Positions 1-61,622 of a stretch of DNA of 64,000 bases are shown here, piece by piece. A model generated the notes under the pieces. The model saw nothing but the letters and a program-made list of their open reading frames with translations, was not told the DNA's origin and did not search any database. Within the stretch, counting starts at the first letter, position 1, and each line of letters opens with the position of its first letter. The DNA comes from Allomuricauda sp. (lineage in GTDB: Bacteria > Bacteroidota > Bacteroidia > Flavobacteriales > Flavobacteriaceae), in assembly GCA_017795045.1 (NCBI GenBank), contig CP051244.1, forward strand, positions 3,473,527 to 3,537,526. The letters run 5' to 3'. The position numbers and the translations under genes were made by a program.

Positions 1-263
1 CCAAGACCACCGAACAAAACTATACCCTGTTGAACCATTTGGACCTTTTCAAGACGTTCGGCTTGCCTCTTTTGATTGGATTGAGCCGAAAATCCATGAT
101 CTATAAAGTATTGGATTCCAACCCAAAGGAAGCTTTGAACGGCACCACCGCCCTCCACACGATTGCGTTATTGAAAGGGGCAAATATTCTACGGGCCCAT
201 GATGTCAAGGAGGCTATGGAATGTGTGAAACTGGTATCGGCCTTAAAAGCCAATGCCCTCTAG
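1..263 (+). CDS. folP: Dihydropteroate synthase, C-terminal fragment
   Basis: Only the last ~87 codons lie in the window; the gene enters from the left edge in frame (first full codon at base 3). The visible part carries the C-terminal hallmark of dihydropteroate synthase: the strand ending in IGLSRKSMI, then the NGTTALHTIALLKGANILRAHDV segment, here split as NGTTALHT and LRAHDV, which forms the end of the TIM barrel and contributes to pterin-diphosphate binding (family knowledge). The enzyme joins 6-hydroxymethyl-dihydropterin diphosphate to p-aminobenzoate in folate synthesis. It lies directly upstream of the diadenylate cyclase gene, a folP-cdaA order common in Bacteroidota. The cdaA start lies ~45 bp beyond this stop. 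Confidence 0.93.
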   Translation, partial: KTTEQNYTLLNHLDLFKTFGLPLLIGLSRKSMIYKVLDSNPKEALNGTTALHTIALLKGANILRAHDVKEAMECVKLVSALKANAL

Positions 264-8034: not shown

Positions 8035-8047
8035 TTAATAGACCGTC

Positions 8048-8737: not shown

Positions 8738-8774
8738 ACACAATCCAAAGAAGAATAGAAAAAGTTTAGACCAT

Positions 8775-8805: not shown

Positions 8806-8825
8806 ATACTGATTTATGACAAATG

Positions 8826-9077: not shown

Positions 9078-9111
9078 TGCCTAAATTTATACTTTCTAAA
9101 TCCTTTTTTTG

Positions 9112-9183: not shown

Positions 9184-9242
9184 GTAATTAATTTGAAAAC
9201 CTGATCAAAGACCAGTGTTTTCCAGTATTCCATTGAACTTTG

Positions 9243-9314
9243 TAGCCCGTAGGGGAATCGAACCCCTGTTACCAGGATGAAAACCTGGCGTCCTAACCCC
9301 TAGACGAACGGGCC
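9243..9314 (-). tRNA. tRNA-Glu (anticodon TTC), copy 1
   Basis: Sequence identical to the copy at 9112-9183, with anticodon TTC in loop TTTTCAT and no encoded CCA. It is the promoter-proximal copy; a TTG-N19-TATTTTTG promoter lies ~24 bp upstream. Tandem identical tRNA genes usually arise by local duplication. Confidence 0.97.
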
Positions 9315-9337
9315 ATAAGGTTGCACAATTGCGGATG

Positions 9338-9367
9338 CAAAAATACAACTATTTTTAAGTCTTGCAA
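9338..9367 (-). promoter_or_regulatory. Promoter of the tRNA-Glu pair
   Basis: On the minus strand TTG (9367-9365), 19-bp spacer, then TATTTTTG (9345-9338), an exact TAnnTTTG match at the Bacteroidota sigma-A spacing. It is 24 bp from the first tRNA base and may also serve rpsT. Confidence 0.6.
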
Positions 9368-9393
9368 CAGTAATTATTATTTTTTGCACCTAC

Positions 9394-10869
9394 TTAATAA
9401 GCCTTTGCAAACAATACCCTTTGGGCAGATGGTTTTCCGGTTACCATACACACTCCCTCTTCCTTTTCCACATTCAACGGAATGCAGCGAATGGTGGCCT
9501 TGGTGTCTTCCTTTACCCGCTCTTCGGTTTCGGCCGTTCCGTCCCAATGTGCGGAGACAAATCCACCCTTTTCCTCAATCACACGCTTAAACTCCTCGTA
9601 GGTATCCACTTGGGTGATATGCTCCTTTCTATACGCAAGGGCTTTATTGTAAATGTTCTCTTGGATTTCGTTCATGAGGGACACCACCTTTTCCACAACA
9701 TCTTCCGCCTTTACGGACTCTTTTTGCATGGTATCCCTTCGAGCCACTTCATAGGTCCCATTTTCCAAATCGCGTTGCCCAACGGCCAAACGCACGGGAA
9801 CTCCTTTCAGTTCATACTCATTGAACTTGAATCCCGGTTTATGGGTATCCCTTTTATCGTATTTTACTGAAAGACCCTTGGAACGTAGCTCCTTCACCAA
9901 AGGTTCCACTTTTTCAGAAATGGCATCCAACTGGTCCAGTCCTTTATAAATAGGCACAATCACCACTTGAATGGGTGCCAGTTTAGGCGGAAGCACCAAA
10001 CCATTGTCATCACTGTGTGTCATGACCAAGGCTCCCATGAGTCGTGTGGAAACCCCCCAAGAGGTAGCCCATACATATTCCTGTTTTCCTTCTTTATTGG
10101 CGAATTTCACATCAAATGCCTTGGCAAAGTTCTGCCCCAAAAAGTGTGAGGTTCCCGCTTGGAGTGCTTTTCCGTCTTGCATCAATGCCTCGATACAGTA
10201 CGTTTCCTCCGCTCCTGCAAAACGCTCGCTGGCGGTCTTGGTTCCCTTCATTACCGGAACACCCATATGCTCTTCAACAAACTCGGCATATACGTTCATC
10301 ATTTGTTCCGCTTCGGCCACGGCTTCTTCCCGAGTGGCATGGGCCGTATGCCCTTCTTGCCATAAAAACTCGGCCGTGCGTAAAAAGAGACGTGTACGCA
10401 TTTCCCATCGCACCACATTGGCCCATTGGTTCACCATAATGGGCAAATCGCGGTAGGACTGCACCCATCTTCTATACGTATCCCAAATAATGGTTTCGGA
10501 AGTAGGACGCACAATGAGCTCCTCTTCCAACTTGGCGTCCTCATCCACAATGATCCCACTACCGTCCTCCGCATTCTTCAATCGGTAATGGGTAACCACT
10601 GCACATTCCTTCGCAAAACCTTCTACGTGACTTGCCTCCTTACTTAAGTAAGATTTAGGAATGAACAAGGGGAAATAAGCATTCTCATGACCCGTTTCCT
10701 TGAACATTTTATCCAATTGGGCCTGCATCTTTTCCCATATGGCATAACCATAGGGTTTAATGACCATACACCCTCTAACTCCCGAATTCTCAGCTAAATC
10801 TGACTTTACGACAAGTTCATTATACCATTTGGAATAATCCTCTGCTCTACTCGTTAAATTTTTACCCAT
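9394..10869 (-). CDS. proS: Prolyl-tRNA synthetase, archaeal/eukaryotic type
   Basis: Class II synthetase of 491 aa charging tRNA-Pro. It is the short ProRS class (no INS editing domain, C-terminal zinc-domain-like extension) found in archaea, eukaryotes and Bacteroidota. Supporting segments: [17 protein letters not shown] at the start, [21 protein letters not shown] with motif-2 region [27 protein letters not shown], given here as RWEMRTR and [11 protein letters not shown], and the anticodon-binding domain with [19 protein letters not shown]-type sequence in the last third. Without the INS domain, mischarged Ala-tRNA-Pro must be cleared by a separate protein if at all. It is divergent from the Ser/Arg-rich lipoprotein gene. 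Confidence 0.95.
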
Positions 10870-10963
10870 CTACTATAGTTTGGCACAAAACTTGTGATTT
10901 TATTAGCGAAATAATTCGGTAAAACTAATTATTTTTAATATGTTCAACAATAAAAATTGCGCA

Positions 10964-12256
10964 ATGATAAAGTTAATACCCCACAGAAAATTTCAAGCTC
11001 TTGCCATACTCCCAGTGGCCACCCTCCTTGTGGCTTCCTGTGGATCGTATCAGCAAGCTTCCTATTACGAAGATGGCATTTATTCAAGCGGTGACCGCGT
11101 AGTCCGTGTAGAGAAAAAATCTGCAGAGGCCATGCGGATTGAGGAACAGGAACAAAACATATATGGCGATTATTTTGGCCAAAAGGCTGATGAATATGCC
11201 GAAATATTGGACGAGGAAATCTTCACCGATATTGATAGCTATTCCAGTCAAATGCAAAACGACACCATTCCATTGGGTGAGCAAACCGACTATTTCGCCT
11301 ACAACAACACCTATAATGGCAACCCCGGATGGGGAGACAACCCTACCAGCCTTACCATCAATGTATACGACAACAATTGGGGATGGGGTGGCTTTTACGG
11401 CTGGAACGACCCTTATTGGAATTTTGGCTGGGGCTATCCTTACTACGACTGGGGATGGGGCTGGAACAGACCTTGGAGATTTAACCGTTGGGGCTGGGGC
11501 GGATACTACGGTTGGGGCGGTTACCCTTACTATGGTGGCTGGGGATATGCAGGCTACTATGGTGGTTGGGGCGGATACTACAACTACGGCTGGAGACCCT
11601 ATTACAACAACAACTATTACGGTAGAAATTATGCCTATAACCGTACTCGAAGAGGGTACAATACCATTCCCGGAACAACTCTTAGAAGAAGTTCCAATTT
11701 GGCCGCTAGGACCAGAACAAGCGGATACACCTCAAGATATAGGACGGACAGTGGACGCTCCAATTTAAGTAGAAGAACGGCTACTACCTCAAGAAGTTCC
11801 AGAACCTATAGCGGTTTGGGTTCAAGACGAACCGTAAGCGCCGATGCCATGGCACGGAACAGGGATTACAGAAGCAGCAGAAGTACGCGGACCACTCCAA
11901 GATATAGCAACGGTGGCTCAAGCACATACAGATCTTACGGAAGCTCTCCTTCCACAAGAAGCAGTGGCACCTACAGACGAAGTGGGACCGTGAACCGCAG
12001 CTCTTCCTCACCAAGCTATCGCAGCTCCGGAAGAAGCACAAGAAGTTACCAATCTTCCAGAAGTAGTGCTCCAAGCCGAAGCAACTATAGCAGATCTTCT
12101 TCTCGGTCAAGCTCAAGAAGCAGTGGCTATAGAAGCAGTGGCTCCAGTGCCAGAAGCAGTGGAAGCTACAGAAGTTCCGGTAGTAGCTCCAGAAGTTCTG
12201 GAGGTAGATCTAGCGGCGGCTCGCGCTCATCAGGAAGAAGTGGCGGAAGACAGTAA
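10964..12256 (+). CDS. Low-complexity Gly/Trp/Tyr- and Ser/Arg-rich lipoprotein
   Basis: A 430-aa lipoprotein (Cys26 in VASC) whose frame is open from an ATG at 10940; I prefer the ATG at 10964 because it gives a standard signal peptide. Three parts are visible: an acidic segment (~30-105); a Gly/Trp/Tyr-rich block (~110-225) with repeated WGWG, GGYYGW and YYGG words; and a long Ser/Arg/Gly/Thr tail (~225-430) of RSSG, SSRS and RSSSR words giving a strongly basic C-terminus. No domain is recognised. Similar low-complexity lipoproteins occur next to proS in flavobacteria. The composition suggests an extended, disordered envelope protein, possibly binding anionic polymers; this is inference. 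The FadL-like gene follows 38 bp later. Confidence 0.75.
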   Translation: MIKLIPHRKFQALAILPVATLLVASCGSYQQASYYEDGIYSSGDRVVRVEKKSAEAMRIEEQEQNIYGDYFGQKADEYAEILDEEIFTDIDSYSSQMQNDTIPLGEQTDYFAYNNTYNGNPGWGDNPTSLTINVYDNNWGWGGFYGWNDPYWNFGWGYPYYDWGWGWNRPWRFNRWGWGGYYGWGGYPYYGGWGYAGYYGGWGGYYNYGWRPYYNNNYYGRNYAYNRTRRGYNTIPGTTLRRSSNLAARTRTSGYTSRYRTDSGRSNLSRRTATTSRSSRTYSGLGSRRTVSADAMARNRDYRSSRSTRTTPRYSNGGSSTYRSYGSSPSTRSSGTYRRSGTVNRSSSSPSYRSSGRSTRSYQSSRSSAPSRSNYSRSSSRSSSRSSGYRSSGSSARSSGSYRSSGSSSRSSGGRSSGGSRSSGRSGGRQ

Positions 12257-12294
12257 ATCCCAGAAATCCATCTTAACTCATTAAAAAATTGAAA

Positions 12295-13794
12295 ATGAAA
12301 CGAATCTCAACTTTCATAATGGTATTGGCATGCACTTTTGCAACGGCGCAAACCATAGACGACGTTTTGCGGTACAGTACCGAAAATATTCAGGGAACGG
12401 CCAGGTTCCAAGCCATGGGCGGTGCATTTGGCGCACTTGGTGGCGATTTATCGGCCTTGAATGTGAACCCTGCCGGCTCTGCGGTCTTCAATTTTAGTGA
12501 ACTGAGCGTCACCGGGTCCAACTATCACAGAAACAATGATGCCCTTTTTGGGAACAGCCTTCGAAATACCACGGATAACTCATTGGAATTCAATCAGATT
12601 GGTGGGGTTTTGGTATTCAAATCCGCAAACAGTCCATGGCAGAAACTTGCATTGGCCTTTAACTATGACATGGTCCAAAACTTTGATGACAGATTTGTTG
12701 CCGAAGGAAATACCGCTTTAGGTATAGACAACTACTTTTTAAATTTTGCGCAAGGACAAGCCCTTGGCCCCTTACGTGTACAACAGGGCGAATTTATTGA
12801 GGACGCCTATCTGGACATTGGTTCCAGTCTTGGGTTTGGTGCCCAACAAGCCTTTCTCGGGTTTCAAGCAGGCATTATTGAACCTACGGTGAACGATGAT
12901 GACAACACTTCCTATTTTTCCAATGCGGAATACAACAGTGTCAATCAGGAATACCGACAGAGCACTAGCGGTTACAACAGCAAATTCACCGTGAACTTTG
13001 CTGGACAATACCAAGAAAACCTTTATTTAGGGGCTTCCCTGAACTTCCATAATATTTTGTACGATAGAGTCACACTTATGGATGAAACTGGATACAATCA
13101 GGATTCACCCGTGCAATTCACCACCTTTGACAATCTTTTGCACACAGAGGGATATGGATTTTCCTTCAGTTTGGGCGCCATAGCCAAATTGAACGAAAGT
13201 GTCCGTGTTGGTGGTAGCTATCAATCCCCTACCTGGTATGAGTTGACGGATGACACATCACAGCGCATCAACTCTTCATTGGCGGTGTCCGACATCAATT
13301 TTATTGACTTTGGTATCGTGAACCTATACGAAGAGTATCGAATCAAGACCCCGGGTAAACTTACCGGAAGCGTTGCGATTGTATTTGGACAGGATGGCCT
13401 GTTGAGTTTTGACTATGGATACCAAGATATGTCCCAGGCTGAGCTTAGACCTACATCAGATCCAAATTTTTCTTCGGAAAACGATTTTATAGCTGACGCC
13501 TTGGGTGTTGTAAACACCTATCGATTGGGTGGGGAATTCCGTATTGATGAAGTGAGTTTAAGAGCAGGATATCGCTACGAGCAAAGTCCTTATGAAAATG
13601 GGGAGATCATCGGGGACCTAAATGGTTTCTCCGGTGGTATTGGCTACAGCTTTGGCGGAAGCAGACTGGACTTGGCCTTTAGCCGAACAGAACAGGATGT
13701 AAACACCTTCCTGTTTGATTCCGGCATCAACAGCGCAGCCATGATCAATAGAATCAACACCAATATCTCCTTGGGATATACGGTCAAGTTCTAA
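12295..13794 (+). CDS. OmpP1/FadL-family outer-membrane transport protein
   Basis: An outer-membrane barrel of 499 aa from the ATG at 12295 (a TTG two codons earlier is in frame but less likely). Signal peptide MKRISTFIMVLACTFATAQ, then the family opening: QGTARFQAMGGAFGALGGD followed by LSALNVNPAGSAVF, the N-terminal plug-like segment with the conserved NPAG motif of FadL/TodX transporters. The rest is alternating strands, with GGIGYSFGG and a terminal aromatic residue in VKF. Such proteins carry hydrophobic compounds across the outer membrane; in flavobacteria they are often labelled hemin receptor without evidence. Substrate unknown. Confidence 0.85.
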   Translation: MKRISTFIMVLACTFATAQTIDDVLRYSTENIQGTARFQAMGGAFGALGGDLSALNVNPAGSAVFNFSELSVTGSNYHRNNDALFGNSLRNTTDNSLEFNQIGGVLVFKSANSPWQKLALAFNYDMVQNFDDRFVAEGNTALGIDNYFLNFAQGQALGPLRVQQGEFIEDAYLDIGSSLGFGAQQAFLGFQAGIIEPTVNDDDNTSYFSNAEYNSVNQEYRQSTSGYNSKFTVNFAGQYQENLYLGASLNFHNILYDRVTLMDETGYNQDSPVQFTTFDNLLHTEGYGFSFSLGAIAKLNESVRVGGSYQSPTWYELTDDTSQRINSSLAVSDINFIDFGIVNLYEEYRIKTPGKLTGSVAIVFGQDGLLSFDYGYQDMSQAELRPTSDPNFSSENDFIADALGVVNTYRLGGEFRIDEVSLRAGYRYEQSPYENGEIIGDLNGFSGGIGYSFGGSRLDLAFSRTEQDVNTFLFDSGINSAAMINRINTNISLGYTVKF

Positions 13795-13817
13795 CATAAA
13801 GCATTTTGAAAAAATAT

Positions 13818-13840
13818 AAGGTCGGAGGAATTCCGGCCTT
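13818..13840. terminator. Terminator between FadL-like and T9SS genes
   Basis: 8-bp stem AAGGTCGG/CCGGCCTT (one G-T wobble) with a 7-base loop and a T-rich tract after it on the plus strand. It ends the FadL-like gene 24 bp after its stop and lies 8 bp from the convergent T9SS gene end. Confidence 0.65.
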
Positions 13841-13847
13841 TTTCTTT

Positions 13848-15287
13848 TTAGCGCACCAAGGAAAAGTGTCTGCGAACGGACCGCGCCACCAATACCCCTT
13901 GGTCATCACGATCATATTCCAACTTAAACCAATAGTCCGAAGAAGGTAAGTCCCTTCCATTGAACGTACCATCCCAACCCGCATTGATATCCAACTGCTT
14001 CAACAATTTACCATAGCGGTCAAAGATGAATACCGTTGGATTGGACAACTGGTCAATACCATACACATTCCAGCTATCGTGCACTCCATCCCCATTGGGC
14101 GTGAAGAATTTGGGATAGCCCACCACCAAAAACGGAATCGGGTCCGACATTCCACATCCATTCTTATCATTGATGACCACTTCGTTCATTCCGGGAGGTA
14201 CATCTATAAAAATGGGGTCGTCCTGAAATTCCCCGCCATTGATGGCATATTCATAATCCCCATCCCCATCGGGTACAAACTCAACGTTATAGGGGTCCGT
14301 TTGGTCGCTGTATACCAAATCATCCAAAATGGTTACCGTTAAACTTGGGATACCATAATACGTGATTAAAATATCATCCGTAATAGGAGTACCAAAGGTA
14401 TGCTCAATGGTTACTCGATATCGTCCAGAATTGGGACTGGTCACTGTATATTCCACCTCAGTGGGTCCACTGGCCAGAACGGTTTCATACGTTCCGTCAT
14501 CATCGGCATCAAGCTCCCAAGTCACATTGGTAATATTTGGACCGGCAGGAGAGTTTAGTGCACTTAAAACAATATCCGGGTCACCTTCACAGGCTGTAAT
14601 ATCCAATCCCAAAAATTCATCCCGAAGCGTACAATCCAAGGCCGTATCTTGATCGTTATCCACCGAAGTACCGGTAAATGTCAGGATAAACGACTCTGGG
14701 TCATCATCAAAATTGGTGTTATAATTGTTGATGTACAGGTAGTAGATTTCACCCGCGGTGACATCCAGCCATTCATCATAGGTATTTTGGCTCTGTTTTA
14801 CAAAGGGAGCTCCTTCCCTACCATCCACGGGGTTGACCCCAATTCCTGTAAAACCGGTATCATTGGTCTCGTAATTGCATCGAATGGGCTGGGCGGTTCC
14901 ATCACCCACTATGGTACAAAAATTTTGTCCCGTGGTCTGGTCAAAAGGTCCGTATACCGCAAAATCCCACTCTGCCGTGATAATACCACCCGGACTGGGA
15001 AGCGCTTCAATATCAAATCCAATTTGCCCATCGGTACCTGCCCTAAAAACGTACCAGCCCGTATTGTGCTCAATATTGGCCGAGCTATTGCTCCCTTTTT
15101 CCAAACAACCTGTCTGGATGATTACCTCGGGGTCAAAATCGTCAATATCCCCACTCCCATCAGTGGTTCCCATAATAGGGGCATCTGCACACACAGGAAT
15201 AGCTGTTCTACAATCTGGGGAGTTTTGAGCGCTTGCTGCCAAAAAGGAAAGTAAAAAGCAACATACAGCGCTAAATAGAGCTCTCAT
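13848..15287 (-). CDS. T9SS type B sorting-domain secreted protein (479 aa)
   Basis: A secreted protein with signal peptide MRALFSAVCCFLLSFLAASA, a conserved N-terminal domain (~22-205: SPDCRTAIPVCADAP ... WYVFRAGTDGQIGFDIE ... WDFAVYGPF ... YYLYINNY), one Ig/PKD-like module (~215-310), a short strand repeat and a C-terminal type B sorting domain (~395-479). That last domain shows the standard signs: FFTPNGDGVHDSW, IFDRYGKLLKQL, GWDGTFNG, LPSSDYWF and a final FSLVR. The domain targets proteins through the type IX system to the cell surface or medium. The next gene upstream is a longer paralogue. The N-terminal domain resembles a lectin-like or jelly-roll fold, so an adhesin or glycan-binding role is possible but unproven. 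Confidence 0.88.
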   Translation of the reverse strand: MRALFSAVCCFLLSFLAASAQNSPDCRTAIPVCADAPIMGTTDGSGDIDDFDPEVIIQTGCLEKGSNSSANIEHNTGWYVFRAGTDGQIGFDIEALPSPGGIITAEWDFAVYGPFDQTTGQNFCTIVGDGTAQPIRCNYETNDTGFTGIGVNPVDGREGAPFVKQSQNTYDEWLDVTAGEIYYLYINNYNTNFDDDPESFILTFTGTSVDNDQDTALDCTLRDEFLGLDITACEGDPDIVLSALNSPAGPNITNVTWELDADDDGTYETVLASGPTEVEYTVTSPNSGRYRVTIEHTFGTPITDDILITYYGIPSLTVTILDDLVYSDQTDPYNVEFVPDGDGDYEYAINGGEFQDDPIFIDVPPGMNEVVINDKNGCGMSDPIPFLVVGYPKFFTPNGDGVHDSWNVYGIDQLSNPTVFIFDRYGKLLKQLDINAGWDGTFNGRDLPSSDYWFKLEYDRDDQGVLVARSVRRHFSLVR

Positions 15288-15400
15288 AGAATTTTTGGGG
15301 CTAAAGGTTATGCTACATATAACCTCTATAACTCCATAGTAAGCCCTTTTAGTATTTTTTGTCGAAAAAATATGCCGTTAATCGATGAAATGCATTTCAC

Positions 15401-17203
15401 CTACCGTACCAAAGAAAAATGGCTCTGAAGATATTTGGCGTCCACTCTATTACCGTTATCATCCAAATAGGACAATTTGAACCAATAATCGGTTGAAGGC
15501 AATGGTTGACCATTCAAGTTTCCGTCCCATCCGGCATCAAACTCCGTCATCTGTTTGATCAATTTACCATAGCGGTCATAAATGGTGACTATGGGCGAGC
15601 TCAATTCTGAAAGCCCTTCCACATGCCACTGTTCGTTGAGCACATCTCCGTTTGGCGAAAAGCTGGACAGATAACCTACCACCACAATATCTTCCTTGAC
15701 CTCACCACACCCATAAATATCGCGCATGGTGACTTCATGCCTTCCGGGAAGGACATCTTCAAAGGTATTGCTGGACTGAAAATCCCCATCATCCAATCGG
15801 TATTCCAGTTCGGTATTGCTTTCAGTGATGATCCTAACCGTATTCCTCGGTTTAAAGTCATCGATTTCCACATCCGTTATCACCGGCAATTCTGAAATAT
15901 TCACGGTAATGGTCTTGGTGGTTTCACAAGAGGAACCACTGGAGGTATGGGTAGCGGTGACCGTATATTCCCCTTCTTGGGAAACCATGATACTAGGACT
16001 TTGCTCCCCTGTACTCCATTGATAGGTATAATTGGGATTGGGCATGGTCTCCCCAATGACGATGGCACCAGCTCCTTCACAAATCACCATCTGTTCCGAA
16101 AAGGTCAGTTCCGGGACCTCAATGGCATCCAACACAAAACTTTCGGACGCATCATAACAATCCGGATTGGCCAATGAAGTGGTTCTCACATAAACAGTTT
16201 CTTGCCCTGGGCTTTTAGCGTATTGCTTTTCCAAAGGATTTATTCCTGCATCGGCATCAGCTTGTGAACTATGGTAGCTCACTATAAAATCGTTTGGACT
16301 TTGGGAACCTAAGGCCTCCCCGTCTTTTGTTTCTAGGCCAAAAATGGTATCGGGTGTATGGCAAAAAGCCACATCACCCATGGTTCCCGTGACAGGAATG
16401 GCATTGAACCCCACTTGGACATCACTTATAATGGTACCCGTCCCGGTTGCGACCACAACCCGGTATTGCGCAGAATTTGGCACGGTATAGGTAGAAGCAT
16501 TGGCTCCCGAGATCAATTGAAATCCACTGCCCGTATCCCTGTACCACTCATAATTTACCGCACCAGAGGTGGTGGCATCCAAAACCACGGTTTCATCCGC
16601 ACAAGCAGCTATCGGTGGCCCCAAAAGATTGTTGATGATGGAACAGTCCAAGGCATCATAGGGATTGGTCAACCAAATATCGCCTGTAAACTGTATGGAA
16701 AATCCAGAATTGACATTGCTAAAGTTGTTGATGAACAGATAGTAATCCTGTCCAGGTTCCACTTGGAGCCAATCTTCATAGTGGACGGATTCTTCATCAC
16801 CCGTTGGGTCTACCCCCACTCCAATAAATCTTTTGGAGTCGCTATTATCAAAAAAATTACATCGAATAGGCTCTCCCAATGAGCTGCAATCACTGGCTTG
16901 GTAGAGTGCAAAATCCCAGTCTTCCGAGCTATTGTGTCCAATATTGAACCCCAATTGCCCTGATGCCCCAGTACGAAAACGGTACCATGCCGAGTTGGAT
17001 TCTATGGTTCCCGAGACAGTCTGCTCCAAACAACCGCTAGAAGCGGCCCCATAGAAGTCATCCGTACCAAAACCATTGGTCCCCCCATTAATGGGCGTGT
17101 TGTTACAAATGGGAATAACGGTGGCACAATCCGGCGATACTTGGGAATGTCCAAATTGCCAGAACAAACAACATAATAGAATCTTTAAAACGGGTTTTAC
17201 CAT
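15401..17203 (-). CDS. T9SS type B sorting-domain secreted protein (600 aa)
   Basis: Paralogue of the downstream gene, same strand, 113 bp apart. Signal peptide MVKPVLKILLCCLFWQFGHSQ; an N-terminal domain with the same pattern (SPDCATVIPICNNTP, WYRFRTGASGQLGFNIG, DWDFALYQ, YYLFINNF) over ~22-190; then three Ig/PKD-like modules (~195-270, 272-365, 370-445), the middle one with the AQADADAG-like spacing SSQADADAGINPL seen in bacterial surface repeats; a strand repeat (~450-510); and a type B C-terminal domain (SFSPNGDVLNEQW, IYDRYGKLIKQM, GWDGNLNG, LPSTDYWF, HFSLVR). The extra modules make it the longer of the pair. Surface adhesion is the likeliest role; the ligand is unknown. Confidence 0.88.
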   Translation of the reverse strand: MVKPVLKILLCCLFWQFGHSQVSPDCATVIPICNNTPINGGTNGFGTDDFYGAASSGCLEQTVSGTIESNSAWYRFRTGASGQLGFNIGHNSSEDWDFALYQASDCSSLGEPIRCNFFDNSDSKRFIGVGVDPTGDEESVHYEDWLQVEPGQDYYLFINNFSNVNSGFSIQFTGDIWLTNPYDALDCSIINNLLGPPIAACADETVVLDATTSGAVNYEWYRDTGSGFQLISGANASTYTVPNSAQYRVVVATGTGTIISDVQVGFNAIPVTGTMGDVAFCHTPDTIFGLETKDGEALGSQSPNDFIVSYHSSQADADAGINPLEKQYAKSPGQETVYVRTTSLANPDCYDASESFVLDAIEVPELTFSEQMVICEGAGAIVIGETMPNPNYTYQWSTGEQSPSIMVSQEGEYTVTATHTSSGSSCETTKTITVNISELPVITDVEIDDFKPRNTVRIITESNTELEYRLDDGDFQSSNTFEDVLPGRHEVTMRDIYGCGEVKEDIVVVGYLSSFSPNGDVLNEQWHVEGLSELSSPIVTIYDRYGKLIKQMTEFDAGWDGNLNGQPLPSTDYWFKLSYLDDNGNRVDAKYLQSHFSLVR

Positions 17204-17336: not shown

Positions 17337-18017
17337 ATGAAAATAGAGCAGGCATTGGAAGAACAGTATGAAGATAGGGGCAACGATCATGTTGGCTCTT
17401 CAACCGAGACCCCTATGAGGGAAGATGCTTTTGTATTGAGTGATGAGGAAAAAATTGAACGGATACAGAAAAGTGTACGTGAAATTATGTTGACTCTCGG
17501 CCTCGATTTGGATGATGACAGCTTGGCCGGAACACCTAAAAGAGTGGCCAAGATGTACGTTAAGGAAGTTTTTGGTGGACTGCATCCCAAAAGAAAGCCG
17601 GAATCCTCCACATTCAAAAACAAATACAAGTACGGCGAAATGTTGGTGGAAAAGAACATTGTGCTGTATTCCACTTGTGAACACCACTTATTGCCCATCG
17701 TGGGAAGGGCACACATTGCCTATATTTCCAACGGTACGGTGGTAGGGCTTTCCAAAATGAACCGTATTGTGGACTATTATGCCAAACGACCCCAAGTACA
17801 GGAACGATTGAACATCCAGATCGTGAAAGAGATGCAAAGGGTACTGGGCACCGAAGATGTAGCCTGTGTTATTGATGCAAAACACCTTTGCGTAAATTCA
17901 AGGGGAATCCGTGATATTGAAAGCAGCACAGTGACATCTGAATATGGTGGAAAATTCAAAGATGAAGCCGTAAGACGGGAGTTTTTGGATTACATTAACC
18001 TGGATACCGACTTTTAA
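17337..18017 (+). CDS. folE: GTP cyclohydrolase I
   Basis: Converts GTP to 7,8-dihydroneopterin triphosphate, the first step of folate synthesis. Zinc ligands are visible as Cys114 and His117 in STCEHHLLP and Cys185 in HLCVNSRG; the AGTPKRVAKMY segment (~64-74) is also typical. At 226 aa it has an N-terminal extension (~1-35) of acidic, non-conserved sequence before the catalytic core, common in flavobacteria. It is likely co-transcribed with cysS, 14 bp downstream. Confidence 0.96.
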   Translation: MKIEQALEEQYEDRGNDHVGSSTETPMREDAFVLSDEEKIERIQKSVREIMLTLGLDLDDDSLAGTPKRVAKMYVKEVFGGLHPKRKPESSTFKNKYKYGEMLVEKNIVLYSTCEHHLLPIVGRAHIAYISNGTVVGLSKMNRIVDYYAKRPQVQERLNIQIVKEMQRVLGTEDVACVIDAKHLCVNSRGIRDIESSTVTSEYGGKFKDEAVRREFLDYINLDTDF

Positions 18018-18031
18018 TCCTACCTTTTTAA

Positions 18032-19513
18032 ATGCAACTTTTTAAAGATCAAAATCTAAAAGTACACAATTCACTTTCTGGAAAAAAAGAGGTTTTTCAA
18101 CCCATAAACGAAGGCCATGTGGGCATGTATGTATGTGGCCCAACGGTGTATAGCAATGTACATTTGGGCAACTGCCGTACTTTCATGTCCTTCGATATGA
18201 TTTTCAGGTACTTTAAACATTTGGGGTATAAAGTTCGCTATGTTCGGAATATTACCGATGCCGGACATTTGGAAAACGATGCCGATGACGGGGAGGACAA
18301 AATTGCCAAAAAAGCCAAGTTGGAGCAGATTGAACCCATGGAAGTGGTACAACGCTACACCGTGGATTTCCATAACACCCTGCAACAATTCAACCTATTG
18401 CCCCCAAGCATAGAGCCCACGGCAACAGGACACATTATTGAGCAGATAGAGATCATCAAGGATATTCTGGAAAAAGGATTTGCTTACGAGGTCAATGGTT
18501 CCGTGTATTTTGATGTGGTCAAGTTCAACAAAGACCACGAATATGGAAAGTTGAGCGGAAGGAAGTTGGAAGATATGATCGCCAACACCCGTGAGCTTAC
18601 CGCCCAGGATGAAAAACAAAATCCGCAGGATTTTGCACTTTGGAAAAAAGCCGAACCGCAGCACATTATGCGCTGGCCTTCACCATGGGGCGATGGCTTC
18701 CCAGGCTGGCATTTGGAATGCACCGCCATGAGCACCAAATATTTGGGAGAGACCTTTGATATTCACGGCGGGGGAATGGATTTAAAGTTTCCGCACCACG
18801 AATGCGAAATTGCGCAGGCCGAGGCCAGTACAGGAAAATCTCCTGTAAAATATTGGCTTCATGCCAATATGCTTACCCTTAACGGAAAGAAAATGTCCAA
18901 ATCCACGGGCAACAATATTTATCCCTCTGAAATCATAAGTGGTAACAACGACATTTTGAGCAAGGCCTATTCCCCTGCCACAGTACGTTTTTTCATGATG
19001 CAGGCCCACTACACCAGTATCTTGGACCTCAGTGATGATGCGCTCCAGGCTTCGGAAAAGGGATACAACCGATTGATGGATGCCCTAAACTGCTTGGAAG
19101 GTTTAAAAACGGGCACATCCTCTAATTTTGATGTCGAGGCATGGAAGCAAAAATGCTACGATGCCATGAACGATGATTTCAACACCCCCATCCTTATTGC
19201 ACATCTTTTTGATGCCGTAAAACACATCAACCTGATCAAGGAAGGGGACGAAACCATCACTGAAGCGGACAAAGCTTTGCTTGCATCCACTATGAACAGT
19301 TTTGTTTATGATGTTCTGGGTATTGAGAACCAATCCATGGGCCAAAATGATTCCAACGCTTTGAACGGTGTCATGGAATTGCTGATTGAACTACGTAATG
19401 AAGCCAGGGCCAACAAGGATTTTGCCACTTCGGACAAAATCAGGGATGAATTGACCACCTTGGGCATCCAGTTAAAGGATGGAAAGGACGGCACCACGTT
19501 CAGCATCAATTAA
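18032..19513 (+). CDS. cysS: Cysteinyl-tRNA synthetase
   Basis: Class I synthetase of 493 aa charging tRNA-Cys. The HIGH-type motif is HLGN at 44-47 within [11 protein letters not shown]; the zinc site starts with Cys35 in MYVCGPTVY and continues with the WHLECTAMS and HHECEIAQ segments; the KMSKS loop appears as [10 protein letters not shown] around residue 288. The C-terminal helical tRNA-binding region ends near [18 protein letters not shown], the usual CysS tail. It ends only 5 bp from the convergent AraC-type regulator, with no terminator between. Confidence 0.96.
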
Positions 19514-56218: not shown

Positions 56219-56239
56219 TTATTTTTAATTAGTCTAAAT
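56219..56239 (-). promoter_or_regulatory. Fur-like operator box 1
   Basis: 21-bp box reading ATTTAGACTAATTA then AAAATAA on the minus strand. It matches box 2 in 19 of 21 bases but in the opposite orientation, and sits 4 bp upstream of the -33 TTG region of the receptor promoter. Confidence 0.6.
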
Positions 56240-56243
56240 ATTC

Positions 56244-56275
56244 CTTGCGTAAGTAGGCATCGGCTTATACATTTG
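56244..56275 (+). promoter_or_regulatory. Promoter of the iron-uptake operon
   Basis: TTG at 56245-56247, 20-bp spacer, TACATTTG at 56268-56275, an exact -7 match. Predicted start near 56281, ~30 bp before the ATG. Confidence 0.65.
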
Positions 56276-56285
56276 CAATCAAAAT

Positions 56286-56308
56286 TTATTTAGACCAATT
56301 ATAAATAA
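56286..56308 (+). promoter_or_regulatory. Fur-like operator box 2
   Basis: 23 bp with outer arms TTATTTA/TAAATAA; core ATTTAGACCAATTA. Resembles the ATTTAGA-type half sites of Fur-family boxes in Bacteroidota (recalled, not searched). It overlaps the expected transcription start and ends 4 bp before the ATG, so repressor binding would block initiation. Confidence 0.62.
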
Positions 56309-56312
56309 CCTC

Positions 56313-58634
56313 ATGAAGAATATATTTCTCCTCCTCAGTTTTGCGGTATGTTTTGCTTCGCACGCACAAACTGGAAGCCTTAAAGGCAAAGTGATCGATT
56401 CAAGAAACAATCCACTATCCAACGTAAACATTGCCATTTCACATACCAGTCTGGGTACCACTACGGATGATTCCGGTAGTTACCTGATTCAGGATCTGTC
56501 CCCTGGCTCCTATACCCTTACCTTTTCAATGATAGGGTATGAAAGCCAGACCATTTCAGCAAATGTTTTGGCCAACAGAACAACTTCTGTAACCACCATA
56601 GCCTTGATTGAAAAGAACGAACAATTGAACGAGGTGATTGTTGAAGGCCATCAAAACAAGTACGTGGAAAATGAGCCTTCCACTTCTTTACGGTTAAAGA
56701 CCAAATTGGTGGAGCTGCCCCAAAATGTACAGGTCATCAGTTCTGAAATCCTTCAAGACCAACAGGCCACAAGCATCATGGATGGCGTTATCCGTAATGT
56801 CAGTGGAGTGACCATGTTGGAACACTGGGGACATTTTGCCCGCATCAACATGCGCGGTTTTCGTTTGCCTGCCTTCAGAAATGGTATCAATGTTCAAGAT
56901 AGCTGGGGACCATTGTCTGAAGATATGAACACCGTGGAACGCATTGAATTTGTCAAAGGTCCTGCCGGATTTATGATGTCTGCCGGTGAACCTGGCGGTT
57001 TCTATAACGTAGTCACCAAAAAGCCTACCGAGCAATTTATTGCCAATGCTTCTTTCAGTGTCGGAAGTTTCGATTTTCACCGTGGTACCGTTGATGTTAG
57101 CGGAAAACTCTCCGAAAATGGAAAACTATTGGGACGGTTCAATGCCATGTTGCAAACCAGCGATAGCCATAGGGGCAATGAGGATGTTACCCGATACGGT
57201 ATAGCCCCCTCTCTTACCTACAAATTTTCAGACCGGACTTCCGTTACCGCGGAAATGAACCTACAACAAGCCGAATCTTACATTGGTTCTGCCTATGTTT
57301 TTGCACCCTCCAGTGCCGGATATGCCAGTTTGGACAGGGATTTTAAATTCACCAATAACGATTACCCAGTAACGGACATCCAAGAGGTGACCTTCTTTGC
57401 CAACCTAAAGCATGAGTTTTCCGATAATTGGAGTATGGAAGGACAATTGGGGTATTTGCGCTATGATCAAGTAGGTAATTCAACCTGGTTGCTTTCCCTT
57501 CAGGAAAATGGGGATGCCTATCGCTATGTATCCAAATGGGATGCGCTTTCCTTGGGCAAGTATGCACAAGTATATCTTTATGGAAATTTCAATACGGGTG
57601 GTGTTTCCCATAAGGTCATGGGAGGCTTTGACTATAGTGACAAGTCGTACTGGGCCGATTGGTTTGAATCTTCCGTAGTGGATACCACTACCCCGTTCAA
57701 TATTTTCAATCCGGTTTATGGTACCAGTCCAGAGCCTGTTTTTGACCGTTCTGCCTCTGTTCAATATCGTAATGGTGGCACTCCTTATGGTGCGAATACT
57801 GTAAGAGCCTATTATGCCCAAGATGAGATTGGGTTCCTCGATAACCATATCCGATTTACATTGGCTGGTAGATACACCAATCTCTATACCCTTGGCAAAA
57901 CAGAAACAGATGATGTTTTTACCCCGCGGGTAGGTTTAAGTGTGGATATTGTTCCCACCTTGACCGCCTACGCATTGTACGACCAATCCTTTTTACCACA
58001 AAGTGGCGTGAACAGCTCAGGCGAATTGCTTAATGACCCTGTGGAAGGAAAAGACATTGAAGGAGGTATCAAGGCCAACTTCTTTGATGGGAGACTGCGG
58101 ACGTCATTGGGTGTTTATAAAATCAACAAAAACAAAATCTTGGTGGGCGACCCAGCCTATCCCAACGATAATTTCTCCATCTACTCCGGTGAAATCGAAT
58201 CCAAGGGAATTGAATTTGATGCACAAGGGCAGATTACCCCAGAATTGAACATCATTCTCAACTATGCCAACACCAATGTAAAAGATAAATCGGGCAGCCT
58301 TGTGGCCGGCCACTCCAAACATGTGACCAATGGATGGTTGAACTACAATTTTTCCGAGACATCGGCATTGAGCGGATTTGGGGCATCCTTGGGATATCAA
58401 TACCAATTGGACCGTTCCACATGGGCTTGGGCCGCTGACAACCAATCCGACCTACCCAACTATTTCAGGTTAGATGGGGCCCTATCATGGAGAAATGACC
58501 ATTTCAGGGTTCAATTGAACATCAACAATATCCTTGATGAATACCTGTATTCCGGGTCTGATTATGGAACCTATCTGTACTGGCAATCAGAACCGGGAAT
58601 CAACGGTAGGGTAACCGTAGCATACACCTTTTAA
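56313..58634 (+). CDS. TonB-dependent siderophore receptor
   Basis: A 773-aa outer-membrane receptor importing a ferric siderophore. Signal peptide ~1-19; a CarboxypepD_reg-like domain (~22-105: LKGKVIDSRNNPLSNVNIAI and YLIQDLSPGSY); a plug (~125-245: LPQNVQVISSEILQDQQA, INMRGFRLPAFRNGI, RIEFVKGPAGFMMSAGEPGG in parts, FYNVVTKKP); and a barrel ending VTVAYTF. The KGPAGFMMSAGEPGGF motif is the siderophore-receptor plug signature. The N-terminal regulatory-like domain is common in Bacteroidota TonB receptors. It opens a five-gene operon and has the paired Fur-like boxes upstream. The siderophore is unknown. Confidence 0.93.
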   Translation: MKNIFLLLSFAVCFASHAQTGSLKGKVIDSRNNPLSNVNIAISHTSLGTTTDDSGSYLIQDLSPGSYTLTFSMIGYESQTISANVLANRTTSVTTIALIEKNEQLNEVIVEGHQNKYVENEPSTSLRLKTKLVELPQNVQVISSEILQDQQATSIMDGVIRNVSGVTMLEHWGHFARINMRGFRLPAFRNGINVQDSWGPLSEDMNTVERIEFVKGPAGFMMSAGEPGGFYNVVTKKPTEQFIANASFSVGSFDFHRGTVDVSGKLSENGKLLGRFNAMLQTSDSHRGNEDVTRYGIAPSLTYKFSDRTSVTAEMNLQQAESYIGSAYVFAPSSAGYASLDRDFKFTNNDYPVTDIQEVTFFANLKHEFSDNWSMEGQLGYLRYDQVGNSTWLLSLQENGDAYRYVSKWDALSLGKYAQVYLYGNFNTGGVSHKVMGGFDYSDKSYWADWFESSVVDTTTPFNIFNPVYGTSPEPVFDRSASVQYRNGGTPYGANTVRAYYAQDEIGFLDNHIRFTLAGRYTNLYTLGKTETDDVFTPRVGLSVDIVPTLTAYALYDQSFLPQSGVNSSGELLNDPVEGKDIEGGIKANFFDGRLRTSLGVYKINKNKILVGDPAYPNDNFSIYSGEIESKGIEFDAQGQITPELNIILNYANTNVKDKSGSLVAGHSKHVTNGWLNYNFSETSALSGFGASLGYQYQLDRSTWAWAADNQSDLPNYFRLDGALSWRNDHFRVQLNINNILDEYLYSGSDYGTYLYWQSEPGINGRVTVAYTF

Positions 58635-58687
58635 GCAACCATAACATTGGGCCCATTGCATATATGGGCCTTTAAAAACCTGATATC

Positions 58688-59407
58688 ATGAAAACAAATT
58701 GCATTGCGTTATTGCTCTTCCTTTTTGGACTGGCTTCTGCCAACGCCCATTACCTATGGATAGAGACCGAGGGCAACGGAACCTTGGGCCAGCCCCATGA
58801 AGTCCGTGTGCACTTTGGGGAATACACCTATGGGGTTATTGAAGAGGTGGAAGGGGAAGCTTTCCCAGCCGTTTCAAAGTTTACCCTTTGGGTAATTGCT
58901 CCCGATGGCACTAAAACCCAACTGAACACCACTCCCAAGAAAGACCATTATCTGGCCCATTTCACTCCAAACAAGAATGGTGTGTACACAGTGGTAATGA
59001 ACAATGATGAGATTGATGTCATTGATTACACCCAGTATGATTTTGGCATCTTCAAAACCCATTATCACTCAACCGCCAAGGTCCGGATAGGCAGTACAGA
59101 TGCCGATACCAAAACAGCAAATCCCAACGGTATTGTGGTAAAGCAATTGGCCAATAATGGGAATGAAGTCAAACTTCAAGTACTGTACAAAGACCAACCT
59201 TTGGCAAAAAACGAATTGCAAGTCTATGTGGCGGACCTTTGGTCAAAGACCTTGCACACCGATGACAATGGCGAAGTATCCTTTGCCCTGCCTTGGAACA
59301 CCAAGTACATTGTGGAGACCACGACCAAAGAAGAAGTTCCTGGCACATACAAAGGGGATGACTATGAGTTTATTTGGCATTGCGCCACCTATTGCATAAA
59401 ACCATAA
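58688..59407 (+). CDS. DUF4198 periplasmic protein
   Basis: A 239-aa secreted protein with signal MKTNCIALLLFLFGLASANA, starting HYLWIETEG, the DUF4198 opening, with histidines that could bind metal (His21, and more at YNPH-like loops such as FKTHYHSTAK). The fold is predicted strand-rich with an Ig-like C-terminal half (LQVYVADLWSKTLHTDDNGEVSF, as DNGEVSFALPW). It lies 53 bp after the receptor and 3 bp before the next gene. DUF4198 members are linked to periplasmic metal handling in annotation, without firm evidence. Confidence 0.82.
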   Translation: MKTNCIALLLFLFGLASANAHYLWIETEGNGTLGQPHEVRVHFGEYTYGVIEEVEGEAFPAVSKFTLWVIAPDGTKTQLNTTPKKDHYLAHFTPNKNGVYTVVMNNDEIDVIDYTQYDFGIFKTHYHSTAKVRIGSTDADTKTANPNGIVVKQLANNGNEVKLQVLYKDQPLAKNELQVYVADLWSKTLHTDDNGEVSFALPWNTKYIVETTTKEEVPGTYKGDDYEFIWHCATYCIKP

Positions 59408-59410
59408 GCT

Positions 59411-59743
59411 ATGGTGACCCTTATTTCATTGCTCACTTTTATGGCCTTTTATCTGCTTTACGGTACCTCTAAAAAGATGGCCGCCATAGGTGAACTGGGC
59501 ACTGAAAAATGGACAGGTGAACATAAAAAAATAGCTCAATCAGCCAGTTTGGCCCTAATGATTTTTTCATTGGGGCTTAGCTGTTTTTTATGGGGTCTTG
59601 GTTCCGGAACCTTCACTTTTTTCATCCTTTTGATGACCGTTGCCAGTTTGGTGATTCTCCTGGCCCCCTTACGCTTGTTGAACTATCGCTTTTTGGGTAT
59701 CCTTTTTTTATGTTCCATCCTTTTTGAAACTTTATTGTTTTAA
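59411..59743 (+). CDS. DUF3325-like small membrane protein
   Basis: A 110-aa protein of four predicted helices (~3-18, 42-62, 66-84, 90-108). The size, gene position before the PepSY-TM gene and helix pattern match the DUF3325 proteins found in siderophore receptor operons of Proteobacteria; sequence identity is too low for certainty by eye. It starts 3 bp after the DUF4198 stop and 3 bp before the next gene. Confidence 0.62.
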   Translation: MVTLISLLTFMAFYLLYGTSKKMAAIGELGTEKWTGEHKKIAQSASLALMIFSLGLSCFLWGLGSGTFTFFILLMTVASLVILLAPLRLLNYRFLGILFLCSILFETLLF

Positions 59744-59746
59744 CCT

Positions 59747-60046
59747 ATGCCAGCCAACAAAAAATATTTGACCCCATCCCCCTCGCAACGATTTGCCAAA
59801 ATAACCGCTGCCATTTTGGGAGGTCTTATGGTGGCCATTATGTTCCATATGGCCTTGGCCAGTTGGTTCAACCACGTAGCTGTTATTATTACCAGTACAT
59901 TTTCCGCTTTCATCCTTTGGGCCGTACTGATGGTCTTGGCTTTTTTGGGCAAGAACGGATGGAAGGTCTGGGGCATGTATCTCTTGGCCAGTTTAGTGCT
60001 CTTTGTCATATTTTATTTTGGAAACCAAACCAACCCTCTTGTTTAA
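59747..60046 (+). CDS. DUF3649-like small membrane protein
   Basis: A 99-aa protein with three predicted helices (~19-41, 47-67, 73-92). Position and size match DUF3649-type iron-uptake proteins placed between DUF3325 and PepSY-TM genes. The assignment rests mostly on synteny. It ends 4 bp before the PepSY gene. Confidence 0.58.
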   Translation: MPANKKYLTPSPSQRFAKITAAILGGLMVAIMFHMALASWFNHVAVIITSTFSAFILWAVLMVLAFLGKNGWKVWGMYLLASLVLFVIFYFGNQTNPLV

Positions 60047-60050
60047 AACT

Positions 60051-61622
60051 ATGGGAAACCGCATTTACAATATTTTGTTCCATACGCATACCGTGAGTGG
60101 TATTGTGATCAGTGTGGCACTCTATGTCATTTTTTTTACGGGATCTTTCTCTTTTTTCAGGGATGAAATTGCCAATTGGCAACGTGGACATTCCGTAAGT
60201 CAGGAAGATGCATTGCCCGGCAGCATGGATGGGCATCTTAACGACCTTTCCAAAGAGTACAATTTGTACGGTCGGGATGTGGAACTGCGACATTATTACA
60301 ACGAAAGAAGTATTTCCGTAAACTTGGGGGCTTCCAAGGATTCATTGGCATCAGAAGAGGAAAAAACTCCCGTATTTTTCTATTTGGACCCCGAGGCCAA
60401 GACCAAGACCAATAATTACGCGAGCAATTACCATTTGGGGGAGTTCTTATACCGACTCCATTTTCTCGATCAGATTCCGTACCCCTATGGCCGTTACTTG
60501 GCCGGATTGGTGGCTTTCTTTTTTCTGTTTGCGATCATTACGGGCATACTGGTACATTGGAACAAAATTGTCTCCAACTTTTATGTGTTTCGCCCTTGGG
60601 CCAAAATAAAAGCAATGTGGACCGATGCCCATACTGCCCTTGGGGTGATAGGATTTCCATTCCAGTTTGTATATGCCGTTACCGGGGCCTTTTTCCTGTT
60701 GAAGGGCATATTGATGCTTCCTCTTGTAGCGGGGCTCTACGATGGTGACCAAAACCAATTGTTTGAAGATCTGGAATACAACCACCCGGTTTACGAATTC
60801 CAGAACGAAAAACTGGACCAAACCATCAACTTGGACCAATATATTGCCGAGATGAAAGAAGAATGGGGTGATTTTAGGGTTACGGAGACCCATATTTTCA
60901 ACTATGGCGACCAAAACATGCACGCCGCCATTAGCGGATATCTTGGGTATGACACCAAACTGAACGGTCTGGGATACCGTATTTATAAAATTGCTGACGG
61001 TTCCATTGAGCAAGAGAAAGTACCGATTACCCAAACTTCTTATTTGGATGGGGTAAAAAATATGATGTTCCGTCTCCATTTTGGTGATTATGCAGGCTAT
61101 GGCTTACGAGTGATCTCCTTTATCCTTGGACTGGTCTCTTGCTTTGTCATCCTCTCTGGGATTATGATTTGGTTGGTGGCACGAGATAAAAAGAACATCC
61201 CGGAAAAACGCCGAAAGTTTAACCAACAAGTGGCGAATTGGTATATGGCCATCTGCCTTACCTTGTTGCCCGTTACCGCTTTGGAATTTATCATCGTAAA
61301 GTTTGCACCCACAGTAAATATGGGTTTCCTCTACCAAACCTATTTTCCAATTTGGTTGGTCGCAAGCGTGTTCTTTATCCTTAAAAAGGATATTGCCTTT
61401 ACCAATAAATGGACTTTGATCTCTGGTGGCATTTTGGGCTTGTTGGTTCCGATTGCCAATGGAATCACAACAGGCAATTGGATGTGGATAGCCTATCAAA
61501 ATGGATATCAACATATCCTTTTGGTGGATTTGCTTTGGCTGGTTTTGGGTATTGCCTCACTTTGGATCGCTTTCTTCAAACTAAGTACAGAAAGGGCCGA
61601 ACTGACGCCAACCAAAGGTTGA
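60051..61622 (+). CDS. PepSY-associated TM protein (PiuB/FpvG-like reductase)
   Basis: A 523-aa inner-membrane protein beginning at the ATG 60051 (an in-frame start at 60003 lies inside the previous gene). Helices are at ~13-35, 150-180, 205-232, 340-365, 395-415, 425-445, 455-475 and 480-500, with a large periplasmic PepSY segment (~40-150, 240-330). Conserved helix-linked His residues occur in HTHTVSG (~11-17), RLHFLDQIPYPYGR, WNKIVSNFYVF and DAHTALG. PepSY-TM proteins of this kind reduce ferric siderophores from the periplasmic side (FpvG, FoxB). The set here suggests the same role. It is the last operon gene and is tail-to-tail with DUF1801. Confidence 0.85.
   Translation: MGNRIYNILFHTHTVSGIVISVALYVIFFTGSFSFFRDEIANWQRGHSVSQEDALPGSMDGHLNDLSKEYNLYGRDVELRHYYNERSISVNLGASKDSLASEEEKTPVFFYLDPEAKTKTNNYASNYHLGEFLYRLHFLDQIPYPYGRYLAGLVAFFFLFAIITGILVHWNKIVSNFYVFRPWAKIKAMWTDAHTALGVIGFPFQFVYAVTGAFFLLKGILMLPLVAGLYDGDQNQLFEDLEYNHPVYEFQNEKLDQTINLDQYIAEMKEEWGDFRVTETHIFNYGDQNMHAAISGYLGYDTKLNGLGYRIYKIADGSIEQEKVPITQTSYLDGVKNMMFRLHFGDYAGYGLRVISFILGLVSCFVILSGIMIWLVARDKKNIPEKRRKFNQQVANWYMAICLTLLPVTALEFIIVKFAPTVNMGFLYQTYFPIWLVASVFFILKKDIAFTNKWTLISGGILGLLVPIANGITTGNWMWIAYQNGYQHILLVDLLWLVLGIASLWIAFFKLSTERAELTPTKG

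Follow-up and report, generated by a model that had tools for sequence, protein, structure and literature searches.

A FoxB-type PepSY_TM operon in Flagellimonas: probable iron-repressed uptake of foreign siderophores, and exchange of the receptor between species

The 64,000-nucleotide stretch of DNA analysed here (the window) belongs to a 3.76-Mb single-contig genome of the Flagellimonas/Allomuricauda group, near Flagellimonas olearia. Five co-directed open reading frames (ORFs) spanning 56313-61622 encode a TonB-dependent siderophore receptor, a DUF4198 protein, a DUF3325-type protein, a second small membrane protein and a PepSY_TM protein. We consider it likely that they form an iron-repressed operon for the uptake of foreign siderophores (xenosiderophores), in which iron would be reduced in the periplasm and Fe(II) would enter through FeoAB. 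Comparison of related genomes shows, in addition, that the plug and barrel of the receptor have been exchanged between species in front of a retained downstream module. An earlier interpretation of the letters alone (the sequence-only reading) had proposed the operon and the periplasmic reduction; the receptor exchange, the N-terminal His of DUF4198 as a candidate metal ligand and the paired operators go beyond it.

The PepSY_TM protein (60051..61622, + strand; 523 residues) matches PF03929 with 182.3 bits (E 2.5e-53, cut-off 28.8). A sequence search of the PDB with the protein alone led nowhere, and with a profile FoxB came up no better than E 2.1. For an AlphaFold2 (AF2) model with a predicted local distance difference test score (pLDDT) of 83.2, FoxB (7abw) was the sole fold match under E 0.001 (Foldseek E 1.4e-9), and in VIA-align it scored Z 16.1, with a root-mean-square deviation of 6.3 over 302 residues, the next entry reaching 8.2. 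Model residues 5-382 superpose on FoxB 1-378, while residues 383-523 are predicted to form additional membrane helices past the match. Five histidines (13, 137, 169, 194 and 343) show no variation over 67 aligned rows, nor in a nine-row alignment that includes five proteobacterial homologues. FoxB is reported to hold two hemes ligated by His on each membrane face (PMC13038864); the matching of the five histidines to these ligands comes from a weak HMMER alignment only (E 2.1). Polar residues are also conserved in the C-terminal part: Cys402 is present in 97% of the 67 rows, and over a set of 45 rows Asp493 occurs without exception and Asn470 at a frequency of 90% or more. Family match and modelled fold together support the prediction, made already by the sequence-only reading, of a siderophore reductase of the FoxB/FpvG type.

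The gaps between the five genes, from 5' to 3', are 53, 3, 3 and 4 bp, and these and the ORF coordinates are exactly as that reading had given them. The start of the PepSY_TM gene is taken as the ATG at 60051, within a longer TTG ORF beginning at 60003. A survey of gene neighbourhoods, proposed with the same reading, found the four downstream genes in the same order and strand in 40 of 42 loci of other genomes, the two exceptions being a cut locus (L019) and one in which the PepSY gene lies about 1 kb further on (L043). Given these counts, the arrangement is beyond chance. Of 71 genomes of the genus, 40 encode a PepSY homologue (E <= 1e-100), which in two cases is only 43-44% identical; of 149 genomes sampled from the family, 22 have a homologue of the fourth protein. 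The nearest named relative of the PepSY protein is that of F. olearia (97%). One record (L010) is labelled as an Algicola sp. metagenome-assembled genome, yet its operon and kdsA place it inside Flagellimonas and it is probably mislabelled.

The two small membrane proteins had been named DUF3325-like and DUF3649-like. The first (59411..59743, + strand) reaches 21.9 bits against PF11804 (E 2e-4), under the cut-off of 26.8, and 39 of its 44 homologues match that family at E <= 1, the best at 9e-7, which supports the first name at the level of homology. For the second (59747..60046, + strand), none of 53 homologues matches DUF3649 (PF12365) at E <= 1, and the genome has no site over the cut-off. 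Small neighbours of PepSY_TM genes were therefore gathered for profile comparison, the source being 10 of the 93 plasmid records in which PepSY had been matched. Nine first-partner proteobacterial proteins were used, three of which score to PF12365. In hhalign the fourth protein of the operon matches these DUF3649-type partners at 96.6% (E 6.6e-10) and the DUF3325-type set at 0.1%; the third matches the DUF3325-type set at 40.4% (E 2.9e-4), a less firm link, and the DUF3649-type set at 0.1%. With these crossed controls both names point in the right direction, that of DUF3649 only at the profile level: the fourth protein is a putative distant relative of DUF3649-type PepSY_TM partners by profile-profile comparison solely. 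The fourth protein and its homologues also matched SpoIIGA and other Pfam families, but weakly and in a scattered way, and these matches were rejected as support.

The DUF4198 protein exceeds its Pfam cut-off (E 1.9e-14) and is the only one found in the genome. A 20-residue signal peptide (58688..58747, + strand) is predicted to be cleaved between ANA and H, a site chosen by eye to which the alignment rows were trimmed. The mature periplasmic protein (58748..59407, + strand) would thus begin with His1, which is present in 51 of 51 rows, and it carries a WHCATYC motif near its C-terminal end. Three residues of the mature chain towards that end are well conserved, His211 (98%), Cys212 (96%) and Cys216 (88%), numbered 231, 232 and 236 in the full-length protein. 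A PDB sequence search gave nothing useful. The AF2 model (pLDDT 95.5) matches the structures of Zcp (Z 21.3) and of a nickel-binding DUF4198 protein (9gcb, Z 16.8), other listed entries scoring 7.0 or less, and its residues 1..219 align to 1..212 of 9gcb. In that Ideonella protein, Ni is reported to be ligated by His1 and His18 (PMC12537917). The mature N-terminal His is a candidate metal ligand, and the protein a candidate periplasmic iron carrier.

The receptor (56313..58634, + strand) is assigned from segment identities to what we call type A. Its barrel matches Pfam above the cut-off (E 2e-34), and against the siderophore receptor model TIGR01783 it scores 229.3 bits with a cut-off of 223.5. 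Among 33 TIGR01783 matches in the genome it alone exceeds the cut-off; the type B receptor of F. olearia scores 261.7. Residues 1-112 comprise the signal peptide and a carboxypeptidase D-like N-domain (CarbopepD_reg_2 at 23-110) whose end, EQLNEVIVEG, looks by eye like a TonB box; plug and barrel follow. The best sequence relatives in the PDB are receptors for alcaligin, pyochelin, pyoverdine, pseudopaline (CntO), ferrioxamine and ferrichrome. The best-scoring sub-family models, all far under their cut-offs, include FoxA and FhuA, and these and the other top models we take to be for hydroxamate receptors. The substrate may perhaps be a hydroxamate ferric siderophore.

A predicted promoter (56245..56275, + strand), read by eye as TTG at 56245-56247, a 20-bp spacer and TAcaTTTG at 56268-56275, is named Bacteroidota-type by a -33/-7 consensus that we assume. 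It is flanked by two inverted copies of a 23-bp motif, TTATTTAGACYAATTAYAAATAA. Operator-like copy 1, ATATTTAGACTAATTAAAAATAA (56219..56241, - strand), has 2 mismatches and lies 3 bp before the -33 TTG; copy 2, TTATTTAGACCAATTATAAATAA (56286..56308, + strand), has none and stops 4 bp short of the receptor ATG. At <= 3 mismatches the motif has seven sites in the genome and the reversed pattern none; a Markov sequence of three genome-lengths gave no site at this threshold and two at <= 4 mismatches. Five of the seven boxes lie at this operon (two), beside a FUR-family gene (one, at genome position about 3177094) and ahead of TonB receptors (two), and boxes with 4 mismatches precede feoAB, the receptor-FecCD-SIP operon discussed below and a second PepSY operon. 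All 40 related operons examined (upstream regions excluding L019 and L036) have a box at <= 3 mismatches, and 28 have two, with <= 5 mismatches allowed. Promoter-like sigma-70 sites were about as numerous as expected by chance (14 against 13.5) and terminator-like sites somewhat more numerous (13 against 6.9, standard deviation 2.5); neither was used. The motif evidence supports the iron regulation that had been suggested: the operon is predicted to be iron-repressed, the repressor probably being Fur, and the box can be used as a candidate iron-operator motif in the Flagellimonas group. Titles and abstract openings in the literature on Flavobacterium or Bacteroidetes Fur boxes held nothing on this operon among the matches listed.

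The other boxes mark loci with features of their own. One of the boxed TonB receptors scores below the siderophore-receptor cut-off; the other (L119 15522-17915, genome position about 3180000) is followed by a protein weakly similar, with a score below the cut-off, to DUF4374, the XusB family (17954-19414), and the two are perhaps a Xus-type receptor pair. Near an iron box of the same region lies a flavodoxin-like gene (10915-11471, - strand), recognized by eye with no Pfam match and apparently split into two short ORFs. The remaining two of the seven boxes share a locus that contains DUF6686 and FMN_bind genes, and the box beside the FUR-family gene also adjoins a DUF6686 gene. The DUF6686 genes (L120 7890-8240 and L119 12700-13053), each adjoining a box, may thus encode iron-stress proteins. 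The second PepSY operon (L123, genome 730000-749500, genes 7681-16033) is of a different PepSY system type, with a receptor, two exported-looking proteins, DUF2271 and a 731-residue fusion of PepSY, flavodoxin and NAD reductase.

Whole-genome searches for FecCD permeases (the ABC importer type covered), IucA/IucC and the condensation domain of non-ribosomal peptide synthetases found none in the window, and the latter two are absent from the entire genome, in line with the earlier statement that no siderophore synthesis gene accompanies the operon. Three FecCD genes lie elsewhere, two of them forming one operon with a gene for a SIP-family cytosolic ferric-siderophore reductase. Because of that operon, the absence of ABC importers from the window, which holds as far as FecCD is concerned, is weak evidence for release of iron in the periplasm. 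Two ApbE genes are both outside the window, and the ten proteins of the operon and its neighbourhood have no Pfam match to ApbE, DUF2271 or FMN_bind.

The course of events that we favour is as follows. An iron-loaded repressor, probably Fur, would occupy the two boxes flanking the promoter. Under iron scarcity the receptor, judged by its family, would bring a ferric siderophore of foreign origin, perhaps a hydroxamate, across the outer membrane. In the periplasm the PepSY_TM protein and its two small membrane partners may reduce the bound Fe(III) with electrons passed over the inner membrane through two hemes, as fold and invariant histidines suggest. DUF4198, with its mature N-terminal His, could bind the freed metal ion or complex, and Fe(II) would enter through FeoAB, whose promoter bears a weaker copy of the box. 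The downstream module would serve as a chassis in front of which, as the comparisons below show, receptor plugs and barrels are exchanged between species.

Several observations weigh against this scheme. The box ahead of feoA carries 4 mismatches. DUF4198 is dispensable: in the roughly 1.5 kb that precede the fourth gene it is found in 12 of 27 family loci (L068 excluded), or in 12 of 25 without L070 and L072, which are cut by contig ends, and among the 42 contig loci it is missing in L030 and reduced to a 66-residue remnant in L015. The latter locus (remnant at 6158-6355) still has its receptor, DUF3325-type, fourth and PepSY genes and is a natural loss. A divergent AraC-type regulator adjoins the operon in 11 of the 40 upstream regions, all in sister genera. 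AraC-type siderophore regulators sense an intracellular ligand, so some entry into the cytosol would be argued. Finally, the metal could be other than iron, since the Ideonella DUF4198 binds Ni(II), Zcp has been solved with Zn, Co or Cu bound, and the PepSY_TM protein CrpH is linked to copper (PMC13038864).

The AraC genes are among the points that would fit an inner-membrane permease role for the PepSY_TM protein, the intact ferric siderophore passing through it and iron being freed in the cytoplasm. Such a role has been proposed for PepSY genes of Alteromonas (PMC7190382), the several helices of residues 383-523 go beyond FoxB, and a cytosolic SIP-family reductase is encoded in the genome. 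FoxB itself, however, is a periplasmic reductase (PMC10866019, PMC13038864), the five histidines are invariant, and the SIP gene sits in its own FecCD operon; we think the permease unlikely. As to layout, 28 of the 40 regions have two boxes and no AraC gene, 11 one box and AraC, and L043 one box without AraC. The divergent AraC-family gene occupies the place of the second Flagellimonas box in L029, L031, L033-L035, L037, L039-L042 and L044, from Maribacter, Galbibacter, Zobellia, Polaribacter, Joostella and further relatives. No causal claim can be made for loss of AraC with gain of the second box, since only two to three changes fall on the PepSY tree.

A different metal would be at issue if the operon acquired Ni, Co, Zn or Cu by means of a metallophore, with DUF4198 as a metal chaperone. 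The closest DUF4198 folds, the Ni-binding protein (PMC12537917) and metal-bound Zcp, would suit this, as would CrpH and the presence of CntO, a receptor for metal-pseudopaline, among the relatives of the receptor. Against it, the box is common to the FUR-family neighbourhood, TonB receptors and feoAB, the receptor exceeds the siderophore cut-off, and the nickel ligand His18 has no well conserved counterpart (His17 37%, His22 71% in an alignment of 49 rows), a point that counts against our own scheme too. Metallophore uptake therefore seems very improbable to us.

Removal of Fe(III) from the siderophore and passage of the ion over the inner membrane are questions that most PepSY_TM systems still pose. 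One answer would be a self-contained reductive importer, in which the FoxB-like part reduces Fe(III) in the periplasm, DUF4198 hands the ion on, and the C-terminal helices, with their conserved Cys402, Asn470 and Asp493, conduct Fe(II) jointly with the two small membrane proteins and without FeoB. Such a chassis would not be siderophore-specific, so that different siderophore receptors could stand before it, and marine flavobacteria would diversify through exchange of receptor plug and barrel. We regard this proposal as quite unlikely, and keep to Fe(II) entry through FeoAB.

Receptor exchange itself is a matter of direct comparison. In the Flagellimonas/Allomuricauda set of 26 loci, including the window and excluding L019 (a short contig on which the receptor is not visible), 12 have a type A receptor (at least 67% identical to that of the window), 13 a type B receptor (28-29% identical to it), and one, L011, has both. 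The PepSY tree has a 17-row clade (support 100/100) and nine other rows, and all four combinations of receptor and module occur: A four times and B 12 times in the clade, which also contains L011, and A eight times and B once outside it. With L011 left out of the type labels, the PepSY tree (25 labelled rows) requires at least four changes of type and the kdsA tree (24 labelled, L021 having no kdsA) at least six. All trees are of single genes with one strain per species, and the kdsA tree is weakly resolved, with 6 of 22 inner branches starred and 11 open. The PepSY data reject the kdsA-supported clade of the window, F. olearia and F. alvinocaridis (approximately unbiased test, p-AU 3e-6), and the kdsA data reject the 17-row PepSY clade (0.014).

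The clearest swap is seen between the sister species F. aequoris (L024, type B) and F. pelagia (L028, type A), compared in 60-base steps. Identity is 80-100% in the receptor N-domain, falls to 37-69% in the plug, barrel and DUF4198 signal peptide, and returns to 82-97% from the mature DUF4198 onward; the PepSY proteins are 96% identical. F. aequoris and the distant F. olearia, both of type B, have the reversed pattern, with 73-93% in plug and barrel and 50-88% thereafter. This swap thus has one junction where the receptor N-domain ends and the other close to the cleavage site of the DUF4198 signal peptide. Between the window and F. olearia, kdsA is 88-96%, the receptor 49-64% and the last three genes 88-95% identical. 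Their N-domains differ too (identity 0.58), so the left junction was not identical in every event.

Across all Flagellimonas receptors, the types are little separated in the N-domain (residues 1-112; identity A-A 0.64, A-B 0.64, B-B 0.79), whereas in plug and barrel they are fully separated, with A-B identities of 0.35 and 0.23 against 0.77-0.96 within types. The N-domain tree needs three type changes and the plug-barrel tree one, and monophyly of A is rejected for the N-domain (p 0.018). The DUF4198 signal peptide travels with receptor B in the exchanges: its identity is 0.90 for B-B, 0.45 for A-A and 0.34 for A-B, that of the mature part being 0.81-0.87; L015, with its remnant, was left out of the signal-peptide count. 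A recent genus-wide sweep of receptor B was considered and rejected, its mean divergence at 4-fold sites (0.507) being near that of kdsA (0.583) and PepSY (0.524).

Could the two types instead descend from an ancestral tandem pair, lost differentially? Tandem A and B receptors exist in four loci (L011, L040, L041 and L043), each type is present in Galbibacter/Joostella as well as in Flagellimonas, and recombination between the N-domains of tandem receptors would likewise leave the N-domain constant. The L011 tandem, however, looks derived, an intermediate in which receptor A stands behind a decayed copy of a B-type DUF4198 signal peptide, preceded by a partial promoter box, and the DUF4198 signal peptide that accompanies it matches the one in L018 exactly. 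The A receptors of these two loci are 96.5% identical, with a 4-fold divergence of 0.37, below those of kdsA (0.51) and PepSY (0.55), and the conflict of the PepSY data with the kdsA grouping also speaks for transfer between species. Tandem loss as the general origin appears doubtful to us, though it may hold for some species.

Exchange between species leaves a natural swap, in which a near-identical reductase module follows two receptors with barrels about one-quarter identical, and the promiscuity of the reductase is therefore directly testable. It also points to a spot of recombination through which marine Bacteroidota may switch from pirating one siderophore to another. Titles and abstract openings on receptor exchange held nothing on this operon among the matches listed.

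Among known systems, the FoxB/FhuB/FsrB reductases share with the window protein PF03929, the FoxB fold over residues 5-382, the invariant histidines and an adjoining receptor. They differ in that the window protein, at 523 residues, has extra C-terminal helices and the operon adds two small membrane partners and DUF4198. Periplasmic reductase activity is reported for FoxB (PMC10866019, PMC13038864), and FsrB is described as acting with FeoAB (PMC10760861). HiuABC of Caulobacter crescentus also combines a receptor, a PepSY protein and a small membrane partner, is Fur-regulated with no known siderophore synthesis, and has FeoAB proposed for Fe(II) (PMC13001220). It comprises three genes, however, "DUF" does not occur in the main text of that paper, and HiuC is likened here by description, not sequence. 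Small membrane partners are reported for both HiuB/HiuC and FpvG/FpvH (PMC13001220, PMC6954188). FpvGHJK of Pseudomonas aeruginosa resembles the operon in its PepSY reductase, membrane partners and periplasmic protein but serves the siderophore that the organism itself makes, together with the binding proteins FpvC/F and the ABC transporter FpvDE (PMC6954188); a scan of ten proteins, those of the operon and its neighbours, found none like FpvC/F or FpvDE.

The sequence-only reading had called a Bacteroidota version with DUF4198 less described. This needs correction, since DUF4198 beside PepSY_TM already figures in a set of 1500 gene clusters (PMC8238504) and in Alteromonas (PMC7190382), and PepSY siderophore systems are known in Bacteroidota from XusABC (PMC13142918) and from the reported synteny of HiuC (PMC13001220). 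The flavinylated PepSY systems and the Alteromonas iron-limitation clusters of the first two papers share PepSY_TM, a secreted DUF4198 and sometimes a receptor, but carry ApbE and/or DUF2271; the operon has neither and is for that reason not filed with them. Receptor/DUF3649/PepSY/DUF3325 loci on plasmids of Methylosinus and Paracoccus have the same kind of three inner-membrane parts by a receptor, in another gene order and with no DUF4198 annotated. XusABC of Bacteroides likewise pairs a Bacteroidota xenosiderophore receptor with a PepSY protein, but is described as using a surface lipoprotein, XusB (DUF4374; PMC13142918), which is not among the five genes here, and because of this the operon is not filed as XusABC. 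It is most likely a FoxB-type PepSY_TM operon of variant architecture, of the FoxB/HiuABC/XusABC kind.

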